From the IMG/VR virus record IMGVR_UViG_3300045999_011440, positions 1-25,291 of that record: a DNA stretch of 25,291 nt; one strand, given 5' to 3'. Positions within the stretch are counted from its first letter, which is position 1; the number at the start of each line of letters is the position of its first letter. Below the pieces are notes generated by a model. The model saw only the letters and a program-made list of their open reading frames with translations. It was not told where the DNA came from and did not search any database. The position numbers were made by a program, and so were the translations under genes. Of the stretch, positions 7,379-25,291 are shown piece by piece. Source of the stretch: a virus.

Positions 7379-7813
7379 TCACTCAGCCAAATATCGTTCT
7401 ACTGTGTCAATTTTACCTTGCACAGCTTCGATGTTTACTGTGCTCCACAGGCCTGGATGCATGGGTCTAGGCCATGTGCCTTGGTCTACCCATGCGTACC
7501 CAATGTGTTCGTGATTGAGACGAGGCTGGAACTCATCTTTGACTGCACATACCCAGGTATGGTATTCAAAATTTGAATCTGCAGAAGTAAATTTTTCCAA
7601 AGGCACTAGGCGTTGATAAGTGGGAAAGCTGCCCAGTTCTTCTGTGCATTCACGTTCCATACCGCCCAGCAGTGTTTCGCCAGCTTCTATTTTGCCACCA
7701 GGCAAGCCCCATGCTCCTGGATGCTTGGGGTCATTGCGCAATAGATAAAGATACCGTTTGGTGCTGCTGGCTCTGAACCACACACCCACTGCTTTTACAG
7801 GACCAGTCTCCAT
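7379..7813 (-). CDS. Nudix hydrolase
   Basis: The gene encodes 144 aa from the ATG at 7813. A full Nudix box runs over residues 40-62: G40, E46, R54-E55, E58-E59 and G61, matching the family pattern except that Cys56 and Ser62 stand at two usually hydrophobic places. The family hydrolyses a nucleoside diphosphate linked to another group, using Mg2+ held by the box glutamates; the substrate here is unknown. The chosen start overlaps the gp15 stop by 19 bases and has GGAGG just upstream, although only 3 nt away. A longer reading frame to 7945 would overlap gp15 by about 150 bases and adds an uncharacteristic Cys/Arg-rich leader, so I rejected it. It is the last gene of the minus-strand gp14-gp15 unit and may clean up the nucleotide pool or act on RNA caps or alarmones. 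Confidence 0.88.
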   Translation of the reverse strand: METGPVKAVGVWFRASSTKRYLYLLRNDPKHPGAWGLPGGKIEAGETLLGGMERECTEELGSFPTYQRLVPLEKFTSADSNFEYHTWVCAVKDEFQPRLNHEHIGYAWVDQGTWPRPMHPGLWSTVNIEAVQGKIDTVERYLAE

Positions 7814-9192
7814 TGGCCTCCAGGGTAAAATCCTTGATAACTTTTGATCCAGGTATCGCCAGTCCACACATACTGAATACCTGTGGTAATGTTGGTCACA
7901 TACTGGCCTTCGGGTTGTGTTTGTGCACGAAAAACCACTTGCCAATAATTGTCTGCATATTCTATGATGTCATTGGCATCAGCAATCAACGGTCGACCGT
8001 TGGCTCCAACCCAAGCATCAGCAGAATAAGTGTTGCTGCCGCTGCCAGTGGATTCAGTGAGCAAATATCTCTGTCCTTCTATGGCGCTGTCTAGTCCATT
8101 CAACGGCCCACTGGCCTGTGGGTCAATCACTGCATCCACTGCGGGCAAGGTATTTTGTGGCACTGTGTCAATATCCAGGTCGTACAACACAAAACGGTCG
8201 TCGTTGGGGTCAAGAGTAATGGTGCCCACAACTTCACTGCCATCGGGCTGCTCAAGAAAAATTTGACTGATACCCGGCCTCAAAACTCCGTACACTCCTA
8301 TCACAGCTGGCCACAGTAGATTGCTGTTGGGCACAATGTTGGTTGCAGTCAAACTGTTGTTGCTGGGTTCATACACAGAACTGGACTGGCGCAAAACTTG
8401 TATTTTGTTGCCGATCAATACTGCTGCATAGTTGTAAGGTGTAAAAACCATTCTTGTTCCCAGCAACAGATCGCTGTTGGTAATGGCATTGATTGCGTCA
8501 CCGTTGGCATCAAACACACTGGCCACAATGCGTTCGATAACACCCAGTTTCTTGACTTTGGCTGGAGAACTGATCCAAATTGGCAAGGTAAATCTCAGGG
8601 TACAGATATCAATGGGATTGTCTGTGCCTTGTGGAATGGTTCTCGAAGTCCAGGTTGTGCCGTCCAGCTCCACCACACTCAAAGATGTCCAGTCAATGTA
8701 GTTGTCAGTGCTTTGGATTTCCAAACTGGGATTAAACAATGTCAAAATTTGTTCTAGCAACTGTAATTTCTGATTGGTATTGCTGGTCCAGATATCCAAG
8801 TTCAGTGTGAGCTTGTATGGCACTGGCATCAGTCTTTCAATACTGAATGCATTGCCTTGCGTGGTTTCATAAGTTTCAGTGGCAGGGTCGTAGGTGCGTT
8901 GACGAACTTCAATTTTGCTCACATGGTATGGTTCTTGAATGCGTGAGCGATCATAATCTAGGCCGGTGATGTAAAAAGTCATCAACGGAGTTGATGGCAG
9001 GCTGGACGCAGAGTTTTGTTGAATTATAGTTTGAGCATTACGACTAGAGTCGCCGTAACGCACAGGCACACGCAACAGTGCAGCATTTTCACTGTTTTCT
9101 TCTCGGCCATATTCTACTTGAAAGCCTGAAAAGATTCTAGTAAACTGTAGCAGAAATCGTCGGATCTGCTCGTCGTAAAAGAATTGTTGCAT
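7795..9192 (-). CDS. gp15: Tail sheath stabiliser/tail completion protein (T4 gp15-like)
   Basis: This gene encodes 465 aa against 272 in T4. The N-terminal 230 residues follow the gp15 plan: an opening FFYDEQIRRFLLQF, then VPVRYGD, a segment on the lines of LMPVPYKLTLNLDIWT, then EQILTLFNPSL, and a final LRFTLPIWISSP strand. In T4, gp15 forms a hexameric ring on top of the tail, locks the last sheath ring and offers the docking face for the neck. The extra 230 residues form a beta-rich C-terminal extension, ending in Trp/Tyr-rich segments (YVWTGDTWIKSYQG, PGGQWRLVL) like those on aquatic T4-like phages. It starts 2 bases after the gp14 stop and shares 19 bases with the Nudix gene, so the three look like one transcript. 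Confidence 0.82.
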   Translation of the reverse strand: MQQFFYDEQIRRFLLQFTRIFSGFQVEYGREENSENAALLRVPVRYGDSSRNAQTIIQQNSASSLPSTPLMTFYITGLDYDRSRIQEPYHVSKIEVRQRTYDPATETYETTQGNAFSIERLMPVPYKLTLNLDIWTSNTNQKLQLLEQILTLFNPSLEIQSTDNYIDWTSLSVVELDGTTWTSRTIPQGTDNPIDICTLRFTLPIWISSPAKVKKLGVIERIVASVFDANGDAINAITNSDLLLGTRMVFTPYNYAAVLIGNKIQVLRQSSSVYEPSNNSLTATNIVPNSNLLWPAVIGVYGVLRPGISQIFLEQPDGSEVVGTITLDPNDDRFVLYDLDIDTVPQNTLPAVDAVIDPQASGPLNGLDSAIEGQRYLLTESTGSGSNTYSADAWVGANGRPLIADANDIIEYADNYWQVVFRAQTQPEGQYVTNITTGIQYVWTGDTWIKSYQGFYPGGQWRLVL

Positions 9193-22065: not shown

Positions 22066-22674
22066 ATGAAACCATTTGCCAAATATCTAGCAGAAAGCGA
22101 ACGCACATACGATTATCGTATCAAAATGTGTGGTCGCATTCCAGACGATCTTGTGCGCCAATTCAAAACCAAGCTGGATCAATTTGATCCAGTGAAATTA
22201 GGCGACATCAAAATCACTCCCATTCAAAAAGTGCTCACTGACTTTCCCAACAACAAAAATGACGCAGTGACCATGTTTGATGCCAGTTTCAAATATCCTG
22301 CCATTGAACCGCAAATCAAACAACTGTTTCAGTTGCTGGGCGGTGACCCCAATCTCATAGTGATGCAAACACAGGCTCATGTTGACGGCCTGGTTGACGA
22401 AGCAGACCGAGTTGAAACTGAAAACAAAGATTTGTTGGCCAACACTGATTTGCCGCCACCTGATGCTGAACAACGTGCACTGAAAAAAGATTACAGTGCT
22501 GAACCGCATGATCATGCAGTGTTGAAAAATGCTTACCGTTCTGATTTCACAGTGGCTGGTGGTAAAACACCCGCTGCGAAGACCACAAATGATTTGCCTC
22601 TGGGCACCAAAAGTCCAATGACAAATATCAAACGTCCGCCCAAGCCAGCCACTGGCGCTCAACCCCGAGGATAA
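22066..22674 (+). CDS. Hypothetical head-associated protein with capsid-targeting-like leader
   Basis: This gene encodes 202 aa. The N-terminus MKPFAKYLAESE resembles the capsid-targeting leader of T4 internal proteins (MKTYQEFIAE in IPIII); cleavage by a gp21-type prohead protease after Leu-x-Glu (residues 8-10) would remove ten residues. The next 90 residues form a compact alpha/beta unit (RIPDDLVRQF, KVLTDFPNN, MFDASFKYPAIEP and LFQLLGGDP) seen in other aquatic T4-like phages. The C-terminal 80 residues are polar and Pro/Lys-rich, likely disordered. The function is not known; a core or packaged internal protein is my inference from the leader and from adjacency to gp16 and the next gene. 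Confidence 0.65.
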   Translation: MKPFAKYLAESERTYDYRIKMCGRIPDDLVRQFKTKLDQFDPVKLGDIKITPIQKVLTDFPNNKNDAVTMFDASFKYPAIEPQIKQLFQLLGGDPNLIVMQTQAHVDGLVDEADRVETENKDLLANTDLPPPDAEQRALKKDYSAEPHDHAVLKNAYRSDFTVAGGKTPAAKTTNDLPLGTKSPMTNIKRPPKPATGAQPRG

Positions 22675-22680
22675 TTCAAA

Positions 22681-24702
22681 ATGACATTTTTTTATGACCT
22701 AAACAAAAAACTGGACAGCATTCGCGAAAAACCAGAAACCACAAACCAACAACTCAACGAACGTGACATGAGTCGTCATGCCAAAGGTATTGAAAAGTTT
22801 GGCAAAGACGGCATGCAGGCCCTGGCCAAGGCTGGTCGTGAAGGCAAGCCTCTTGACAAAATCAGAGCCAAGTATGACAAATACGACGAGTCAATGGATG
22901 AAGGCCTAGGTTCTATTGTAAAGAAAATTGGCGGTGGCATGAAAAAAATGGCCGGTCGTGCCATGGACAAAGTGGCTCCCGGAGACGAGGCACTGTTGAA
23001 AGATCTACAGAAAAAAGTGGGTGTACCACAAACTGGCATGAAGCCAGGTAGCCAACCAAATCCCAAGGTAGTCAAAGAAGTAACTGCCCCAATTGATTTT
23101 GACAAAGTGTTAGATGCTATTGCTGCATTGTACGGCGACGAAATATGGGACAATGATGCTATGCAGGATCTAGCCAACGATCTTGAACAAGCAGGTCCAA
23201 CTGAAAGAGAACTAGATTTCATTATTGCCAAAGGTAAGTTGCCAAAACGGTTGGCTGGCATCCAATTCTCAGCAGGCGACAATGTTCAATTTGGCGAAGG
23301 AAGTTCTCCAATGTCACCCAAGCAAAAGAGCTTTGCTGCATTGGCTGAGCCCAAAGACAAAATTACTTTTGCTGACAAGATTGCCGGCGCCAAAAAAGAA
23401 GTTGACGAGATGCTGGGCGATGTGGCTGCTGAAGCCATGCGTGGCGCACTCAAAGGTGGCCAGAAGAAACTAGACCGAAATCAAAACGGTAAACTGGATG
23501 CACAAGACTTTGCCATGCTGCGTAAAGGCGGCAAGCAAGAAACTGACGAAGGCTGGGATGACATGATCAAAGCAGTCGATCAACGTCGCGGTGAAGTCAA
23601 AGCTGGTCACAAAGTGCAAGGGGCCAAAGGCGAGATTGAAAAAACTGCCACTGGCATCAAGCACACTCGCAGATACGATGCCAAAACTGGCGAAACAGAC
23701 ACTGGTGATGATGCACCAGCCGATGGCGAAAAGCGCGGTCGTGGACGTCCCAAGGGCACAGGCAAGAGCATGGGCGCCAAGGGACCATCAGGCAAAAGCA
23801 AACTGATGACCAAAGAAGCAGATCACGACAGTGAAGAAATCAAACAGGCCGTGGCCATGCTGAAAAAAGCTGGATACCGAGTTGAGAAAGCTGAACAAGA
23901 GCTTGACGAAAAAGCTGTGAGCAAAAAGCAGCAGCGTTTCATGGGCATGGTTCATGCAACACAAAAAGGTGAAAAAGCTCCTTCAAAAGAAGTTGCCAAA
24001 GTAGCCAAGTCAATGGGCAAGAAAGATGCTGAAGACTTTGCTGCTACCAAGCACAAAGGCCTGCCTGAAAAGAAAAAGCCAGAAAGCAAAAAGAAAGAAA
24101 AAACAGAAGAAGCTGGTGGATCAGGAACCCCCACTGCATCCAGCGGATTCAGTTTTGGCAAAGGCATTTACGATTCAATGAATCGCGAGCTTGAAACCAT
24201 GATTGCTGAAAGCATGAACATATCAATGAGCATGAACAGCGACGATGCCATGCACGGTGGTGCAGCCAAAACACTGACAGTGACAGCCACAGATGACGAT
24301 GCCATGAAGTTGGCTGCATTGTTGAAAATGGCAGGCCTGGGCAGCCAAGGCGCTGAACAGACCATTGATGAAAACGCACCAGATTGGCCCACTGAACAAG
24401 AAACCAGCGACAATGCCATGCAGTATTCAGGTGGATTGAACGGACCCAAGTCAACTGGTCAGACCACGGTACCTGTGATTGCCAGTCAAATCAATCGTCA
24501 GGCCACCTACGAGGATGACGAATTGAATCGCTTGCGTGAAATGGCCGGTGTGGCCGAAGGCAAGAAGCCAGACTTCTTGGACATGGACAAAGACGGTGAC
24601 AAAGAAGAGCCAATGAAAAAAGCTGTCAAAGACAAAGAAGACAAAAAAGTCGAAGAAAGTATTCTTGACATGAAACGTCTGTGGACAGCCTACAAGGGGT
24701 AA
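22681..24702 (+). CDS. Large charged modular protein, candidate internal-head precursor
   Basis: This gene encodes 673 aa, rich in Lys, Glu, Asp and Ala, with a start 6 bases after the previous stop. Modules in order: a basic N-terminal region (30-130); an alpha-helical block (135-195); an EF-hand/dockerin-like calcium loop at 265-276 (DRNQNGKLDAQD); an AT-hook at 351-359 (RGRGRPKG); a DUF3008-like stretch at 411-465 (KKQQRFMGMV to KGLPEKK); a block at 510-620 common in aquatic phages (SGGLNGPK); and a second, degenerate acidic loop at 634-643 (DMDKDGDKEE). Five Leu/Ile-x-Glu sites resembling T4 gp21 cleavage sites fall at 25-27, 221-223, 408-410, 508-510 and 562-564, several at module edges. 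I infer a head-core or packaged DNA-binding precursor. It could instead be a large scaffold-like protein. Confidence 0.7.
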   Translation: MTFFYDLNKKLDSIREKPETTNQQLNERDMSRHAKGIEKFGKDGMQALAKAGREGKPLDKIRAKYDKYDESMDEGLGSIVKKIGGGMKKMAGRAMDKVAPGDEALLKDLQKKVGVPQTGMKPGSQPNPKVVKEVTAPIDFDKVLDAIAALYGDEIWDNDAMQDLANDLEQAGPTERELDFIIAKGKLPKRLAGIQFSAGDNVQFGEGSSPMSPKQKSFAALAEPKDKITFADKIAGAKKEVDEMLGDVAAEAMRGALKGGQKKLDRNQNGKLDAQDFAMLRKGGKQETDEGWDDMIKAVDQRRGEVKAGHKVQGAKGEIEKTATGIKHTRRYDAKTGETDTGDDAPADGEKRGRGRPKGTGKSMGAKGPSGKSKLMTKEADHDSEEIKQAVAMLKKAGYRVEKAEQELDEKAVSKKQQRFMGMVHATQKGEKAPSKEVAKVAKSMGKKDAEDFAATKHKGLPEKKKPESKKKEKTEEAGGSGTPTASSGFSFGKGIYDSMNRELETMIAESMNISMSMNSDDAMHGGAAKTLTVTATDDDAMKLAALLKMAGLGSQGAEQTIDENAPDWPTEQETSDNAMQYSGGLNGPKSTGQTTVPVIASQINRQATYEDDELNRLREMAGVAEGKKPDFLDMDKDGDKEEPMKKAVKDKEDKKVEESILDMKRLWTAYKG

Positions 24703-24875: not shown

Positions 24876-25168
24876 TGCCTGCCAATGTATACACCTCTTT
24901 AAGCAATGCCACCGTCTATACTGACCGGTTGGAGATCAGCACCAATGCTGCCAATGCTTGGTTGCAGGTGTATGCCACAGCTCTAGGCACTGCCAATGCT
25001 GCGGGAAATTTGTACTCAGCTCCTATAAACATTCCTGCCAACACAGTGTATCAGACCTATGTTGGTGCCGGCAATAAAGTGACCATAGTGTGCACAGCTT
25101 CGTACACAGCATTGGAATTAGGAACAGCCAGTTCAGCTCAATCTGGAGTGATTGGCGGAGGCAGCTGA
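24875..25168 (+). CDS. Small beta-rich hypothetical protein
   Basis: This gene encodes 97 aa, starting in the preceding TAATG overlap and ending in the TGATG overlap of the next. It is rich in Ala, Thr, Asn and Val, has alternating strands (TVYQTYVGAGNKVTIV) and a Gly/Ser end. The composition recalls the phage's fibre and decoration proteins. No signal or catalytic motif is visible. A capsid decoration role is possible from composition and neighbours only. Confidence 0.65.
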   Translation: MPANVYTSLSNATVYTDRLEISTNAANAWLQVYATALGTANAAGNLYSAPINIPANTVYQTYVGAGNKVTIVCTASYTALELGTASSAQSGVIGGGS

Positions 25169-25291
25169 TGCGAGCCCGCGAATTTTTGGCAGAGAAAAAA
25201 GTTGGTGACATCAGCACCAGGCTGCGATATGCCACTCGTGGCCTGCATAAATTTCGCGATGGTCAGTTTGCTGATCGTATCTATGAACTCA
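25168..25291 (+). CDS. 3'-truncated gene with capsid-targeting-like leader
   Basis: The frame opens at the ATG sharing one base with the previous stop and runs to the window end (41 full codons) without a stop. The N-terminus MRAREFLAEKK again has the short leader ending in Leu-x-Glu seen in the gene at 22066. ATRGLHKFRDGQFADRIYEL follows soon after and is like a conserved segment in aquatic phage proteins that I recall only as hypotheticals. It may be another packaged or core protein. The rest lies outside the window. Confidence 0.6.
   Translation, partial: MRAREFLAEKKVGDISTRLRYATRGLHKFRDGQFADRIYEL

Follow-up and report, generated by a model that had tools for sequence, protein, structure and literature searches.

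A probable multi-cassette precursor of internal head proteins, punctuated by candidate prohead-protease sites, in a T4-like aquatic myovirus

What is made from a gene that joins an EF-hand-like loop, an AT-hook and a DUF3008-like segment, and does its product stay in one piece? The window, that is, the whole stretch of 25,291 nucleotides that was analysed, is a 25-kb fragment of a T4-like myovirus in which sheath, tube, neck and head-closure genes are present. A single ORF at 22,681–24,702 on the plus strand encodes a product of 673 aa, and all three motifs, described in an earlier note from the sequence alone, were located in it. The same note took the protein for a precursor that is cut into several peptides at Leu/Ile-x-Glu sites on module borders; T4 gp21 cleaves after L/I-x-E (PMC9026906). 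We consider it probable that the protein is a multi-cassette internal-head precursor of a T4-like aquatic myovirus, cut by gp21.

A scan of IMG/VR yielded 78 distinct loci, which gave 61 non-redundant proteins, including that of the window. The N-terminal header MTFFYDLNKKLDSIREKPETTNQQLNE (residues 1–27; 22,681–22,761, plus strand), with a candidate cut after LNE-27, follows the pattern M[TS]FFYDLNKKL..LNE, which was common to 55 of the 61 homologues, and the blocks behind it varied in number, order and identity between relatives. The PDFLDxDxDG block was C-terminal in the window protein and lay almost directly behind the header LNE in two relatives (L029 and L066), and the DFDKVL block (residues 139–204) recurred with other N-termini, e.g., in L078, L202, L205 and L225. 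One relative (L059, 5218–8331) carried a DnaJ domain (E = 2.4e-11) with an HPD motif, placed between MRE and IRE. Comparison of the sequences thus shows a mosaic of cassettes that are shuffled among relatives, in which the preceding site is kept while its surroundings change. Searches of isolate phages by tblastn with the PDFLD+GKPGKNF block or the GKGIYDS block gave no matches. Two short contigs from the genome-contig scan, binned with Pelagibacter and with a betaproteobacterium, were not used to name a host. A second large protein of a relative (968 aa), in which a copy of the DFDKVL block has diverged, was noted in L008 (10,768–13,674); it has glycine-zipper-like stretches and many aliphatic-x-Glu sites and looks like another cassette protein.

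All parts of the window protein are given here on the plus strand. Behind the header, the cassette RDMSRHAKGIEKF..YDKYDES with the site MDE-74 covers residues 28–74 (22,762–22,902), and it is preceded by the header LNE or, in other relatives, by KLEE or KVDE. The site VKE-133 with the cassette DFDKVLDAIAALYGDEIW..NVQF (residues 131–204; 23,071–23,292) forms a block also present in proteins with unrelated N-termini, and the cassette PMSPKQKSFAALAE..DVAAEAM (residues 210–253; 23,308–23,439) contains LAE 221–223. The EF-hand-like loop DRNQNGKLDAQD (residues 265–276; 23,473–23,508) has the pattern D-x-N-x-N-G-x-L-x-x-x-D; its match to Pfam EF-hand_7 (E = 0.008) scored 17.0 against a cut-off of 30, though across the family the loop was above chance, being present in 20/61 homologues versus 0.1 expected from shuffles. 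The AT-hook RGRGRPKG (residues 352–359; 23,734–23,757) had its core, RGRP with basic flanks, in 52/61 homologues versus 1.35 expected in shuffles. The candidate cleavage site LDE (residues 408–410; 23,902–23,910) forms the border of the DUF3008-like cassette, which runs from residue 411 to about 463–465 (23,911–24,069). This cassette matched PHROG 30268 with E = 7e-23, its Pfam score for DUF3008 (PF11450) was 17.9 bits, under the cut-off of 24, compared with 25.8 in homologue L069, and DUF3008 was found in 47/61 homologues. The helix GKGIYDSMNRELETMIAE, the site IAE-510 and the SMNISM..AGLG cassette occupy residues 493–554 (24,157–24,342), the partly kept site IDE-564 and the cassette NAPDWPT.. 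residues 562–607 (24,364–24,501), DDELNRLREMAGVAE with the site VAE-626 and the Ca-loop-like cassette KKPDFLDMDKDGDKEEPMKKA residues 612–648 (24,514–24,624), and the site VEE-659 with the C-terminal segment SILDMKRLWTAYKG residues 657–673 (24,649–24,699). Pfam revealed no enzyme domain in the protein. The AlphaFold model was too weak for a fold search (mean pLDDT 47); as weak evidence, it suggests short beads linked by low-confidence stretches, with sites 27, 410, 564 and 626 in such stretches and 510 at the end of a helix.

Does the protein contain more sites than chance would give? The five L/I-x-E triplets named earlier (25–27, 221–223, 408–410, 508–510 and 562–564) were all in place, and three more were found at 14–16 (IRE), 461–463 (LPE) and 618–620 (LRE). 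The protein has 8 [LI]xE where its composition predicts 5.2 (p = 0.135), and 13 [LIVM]xE where 10.1 are expected (p = 0.20). Because 8 against 5.2 is at chance level, the [LI]xE count is uninformative by itself and was rejected as stand-alone evidence. A count of this kind would suit an uncut multidomain internal protein of the polyvalent type, the modules of which act in one chain, with aliphatic-x-Glu as a product of linker composition. Polyvalent proteins are an established concept (PMC5512222), and the cassette borders are Glu-rich in general. Against this stands the position of the sites, which was followed through relatives and through cassette contexts.

Site conservation was counted across 19 full-length aligned relatives. 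LNE 25–27 and IAE 508–510 were both kept in 19/19, as was 408–410 in the form [LIV]xE. IDE 562–564 was kept in 6/19 and LAE 221–223 in 7/18, with Glu replaced by Pro in 11; the latter position, being poorly conserved and inside a cassette, was rejected as a module border. The expectation that homologues would keep the sites at module borders thus held for 27, 410 and 510, held in part for 564, and failed for 223. The list of five sites also proved incomplete. V and M are frequent at P3, and therefore there are more sites than the L/I rule gives; the conserved M/V-x-E sites at 72–74 (15/17), 131–133 (12/16), 624–626 (14/15) and 657–659 (19/19, as [VI]xE) had been overlooked. VDE 241–243 (17/17), LPE 461–463 (16/19) and RLRE 618–620 (19/19) are kept too, but their positions, within conserved blocks or at block ends, mean that they provide no separate evidence.

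The border test asked whether [LIVM]xE ended at a fixed offset within the 16 residues before every copy of a block in the IMG/VR loci, with contexts less than 50% identical to one another and 2000 shuffles of the same residues as the control. DUF3008 was preceded by [LIVM]xE at offset 0 in 38/38 contexts, compared with a mean of 1.6 and a maximum of 8 in the shuffles; these contexts had an invariant E at P1, a variable P2 and one of I, V, L and M at P3. The site at 408–410, which had been described as lying directly before the DUF3008-like part, is exactly at that border. Exact register of the site across all 38 dissimilar contexts, with an unconstrained P2, an aliphatic P3 throughout and a frequency far above the shuffles, argues against linker composition, and we regard an uncut chain as improbable. 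Fixed-offset sites were also found in front of the PDFLD (residues 612–648; 11/22 contexts), PDWPT (residues 562–607; 14/23), PKQKSFA (residues 210–253; 7/21), DYDKVL (residues 131–204; 5/8) and GKHNN/GKPGKNF (6/9) blocks, and each exceeded every shuffle, but these five results are weaker because the non-zero offsets were picked after inspection. EYDxEG (0/17 contexts) and GKGIYDS (0/23) had no fixed-offset site in front. IAE-510, which indeed precedes its block, was found in 50/51 distinct contexts, but the helix upstream is itself conserved.

In cyanophage isolates, internal DUF3008 was preceded by LHE, INE, ITE, LQE, IEE and IYE (6/6 contexts), and N-terminal or free DUF3008 started with MPAVSK, MAAVSK or similar at the same point. 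The predicted cut would therefore leave nearly the N-terminus of a solo DUF3008, because the solo forms begin at the same place. Gap-2 residue-pair enrichment over the homologues was uninformative, as recurring modules dominated it. A de novo border test on displaced ungapped alignments showed enrichment of [LI]xE but was noisy, because linker indels create false borders and borders are generally Glu-rich, [KRQN]xE included; cassette-anchored contexts were used instead. The K2 row of the border test was left unused, because its pattern already demands an aliphatic P3.

Is the product a head protein at all? Sheath and tube genes are among the neighbours of its gene, as might be expected of a tail or baseplate component, or of a non-virion protein that lies by chance in a late gene cluster. 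Such an origin seems very improbable, since a head-closure gene and a CTS-like gene lie directly upstream, no similarity to tail families was found for the window protein in PHROG and Pfam, and the sites are conserved at cassette borders. The upstream gene (22,066–22,674, plus strand) begins with the capsid-targeting-like sequence MKPFAKYLAE. Its counterparts in relatives gave 40 distinct N-termini, and nearly all of them followed the plan MKxFxxYLAE. In T4 IPIII, positions 4 and 7 determine targeting and positions 8 and 10 processing (PMC9026906), and by eye MKPFAKYLAE fits all four; the product of 22,066–22,674 is probably an internal head protein. A further gene, cut by the window end (25,168–25,290, plus strand), overlaps the preceding stop (TGATG), and by eye its start, MRAREFLAEKK.., is also capsid-targeting-like.

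No protease gene was found within the 25-kb fragment. Among 18 long contigs with relatives, Peptidase_S77 was encoded in 7 and Gp23 in 9. The gene order in relatives was acidic protein, gp21, gp22-like scaffold and gp23, with aliphatic-x-Glu sites throughout, and gp23 of relatives begins MSQELLE/SRWGETKEALLE/GLNG..ILE/NTRKYLKE/NAS. Comparison among relatives shows aliphatic-x-Glu conserved at several borders, and a protease together with matching sites. The idea of a multi-part precursor cut at module borders is thus well supported by the shuffled cassettes, the kept sites, the S77 protease and the sites in gp22 and gp23 of relatives, and by the comparable virion proteins of two cyanophages described below. 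Against it, the count is at chance level, two cassette types are siteless, and 221–223 is not kept.

In the precursor that we favour, the N-terminal FFYDLN header (residues 1–27) would act as a core-targeting propeptide and direct the protein into the core of the prohead, in the manner of the capsid-targeting propeptides of T4 internal proteins, which are 10–19 residues long and are shed (PMC9026906). A gp21-type S77 protease would cut after aliphatic-x-Glu behind the header (27) and between cassettes, where the best candidates are the cuts after 410, 510, 626 and 659, followed by those after 74, 133 and 564. Cutting would free several small pieces, among them an AT-hook segment, Ca-loop units and the basic DUF3008 unit, with the AT-hook and DUF3008 pieces as putative DNA binders. 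Pieces kept in the head would be packed alongside the DNA and may accompany it into the host. Relatives swap cassettes between sites. Taken together, the array and its sites indicate that the gene probably loads several small proteins, some of them likely DNA-binding, into the head. T4 IPI, IPII, IPIII and Alt (PMC9026906, PMC3012670) are alike in having a short N-terminal propeptide that ends in aliphatic-x-Glu and a gp21-type protease, and as late head proteins with diverse mature parts after the targeting peptide. Each T4 IP, however, consists of a single unit and one propeptide, whereas the window gene has many cassettes, several sites and a header without obvious sequence similarity to the T4 CTS.

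T4 gp22, gp67 and gp68 are also alike, in that each of these precursors has several L/I-x-E sites at which it is cut, as is predicted here, and they point to a serious rival. The window protein could be an expendable chain of the prohead core that gp21 shreds in the same way, most fragments leaving before DNA entry, with the cassettes as core filler or size-setting parts instead of cargo. In T4, gp22 and two more core proteins each give several fragments, most of which are removed (PMC9026906), and the low predicted order of the window protein would suit such a chain. In the same direction, S-SZBM1_194, a comparable cassette protein, was absent among the listed rows of its phage's MS table, an absence that we grade as neutral to negative. 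However, the relatives have a separate gp22-like scaffold and their cassettes are movable from genome to genome, recognisable cassettes (DnaJ, SAM-lyase family and zinc-ribbon-like) occur in the wider family, and cyanophage virions contain a free DUF3008 as well as two cassette proteins (PMC9602691, PMC10665884). An expendable scaffold is, in our judgement, unlikely, though it deserves more weight than an uncut chain.

For internal head proteins released from a precursor, known virion presence is limited to comparable cyanophage proteins, and it bears on the window protein by analogy. In S-SCSM1, the proteins annotated as belonging to the virion after MS (PMC9602691) include the cassette protein SSCSM1_92 (PDFLDLDKDG and other blocks), the free DUF3008 SSCSM1_93 and the NMNAT SSCSM1_91, which has the N-terminus MKSFLQFLKE. 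In S-CREM2, the virion proteins identified by MS include cassette-like gp137 and gp160, the cytidylyltransferase gp154 (MKNFSSFLTE) and gp136 (MQTFSMFFSE) (PMC10665884, Table 3). The available parts of PMC9602691 and PMC10665884 report no cleavage of these proteins. Starts such as MKSFLQFLKE and MKNFSSFLTE would account for the entry of NMNAT/cytidylyltransferase into virions; these enzymes of S-SCSM1 and S-CREM2, with their targeting-like starts, were noted at L081 3209–4438 and L117 10,609–11,469. Internal K[TS][WF]xEFLxE or ITYREFIAE was found before GNRT in P-RSM6 (L085, 5995–7611), S-WAM1 (L249) and S-SZBM1 (L250), and in P-RSM6 this targeting-like stretch lies about 20 residues ahead of a match to the SAM-lyase family (PF23780), which scores 33.5 bits over a cut-off of 28. 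Cyanophage cassette proteins (T4-GC 119 type and others; S-IOM18, S-CAM22, DSL-LC02, S-SCSM1_92 and S-CREM2 gp160), likewise from T4-like phages, resemble the window protein in having DUF3008 and other small units separated by aliphatic-x-Glu, but they have mostly other cassettes and no FFYDLN header, and they are annotated merely as hypothetical or virion proteins.

On a bolder reading our opinion is evenly divided: as a cargo-loading strategy of T4-like aquatic phages, a single gene would line up small, unrelated head proteins in an array whose members can be exchanged and are set apart by prohead-protease sites. Recombination in linkers would gain, lose and reorder the delivered proteins, and head maturation would release them. 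The DnaJ, SAM-lyase family, zinc-ribbon-like and AT-hook units of the wider family suggest cargo for host take-over or anti-defence. Polyvalent proteins (Iyer et al. 2017, PMC5512222) are alike in being multidomain and mosaic, with proposed co-delivery with DNA and processing. Their processing was proposed for zincin-like peptidases (PMC5512222), whereas the window protein and its relatives have small cassettes, most of which are not enzymes; Pfam found no peptidase domain, zincin-like included, in the window protein or ten cassette proteins, and DUF3008 and punctuation by prohead-protease sites are absent from the text of PMC5512222. In phiKZ and SPN3US, a gp21-related protease cleaves many head proteins, inner-body and ejection proteins among them, after x-x-Glu (PMC9026906, PMC7411985), but the motif is S/A-x-E or A-x-E and propeptides are removed from otherwise single proteins. 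In the literature searched, with most subscription journals outside its scope, we found no description of a shuffled cassette array with prohead-protease sites and no mention of DUF3008. The parts are of known kinds, as in T4 internal and core proteins and the polyvalent concept, and the shuffled, punctuated array would be a new variation. T4 internal proteins are single genes. If the array is real, it would account for a group of virion proteins that are annotated as 'hypothetical' in aquatic T4-like phages, place DUF3008-type units among the internal head proteins freed from a precursor, and provide a sequence rule for predicting which cargo these abundant phages bring into host cells. Elsewhere in the window, an ORF at 7379–7945 (minus strand), which by eye resembles a Nudix hydrolase (GLPGGKIEAGET..RECTEELG), lies beside structural genes.
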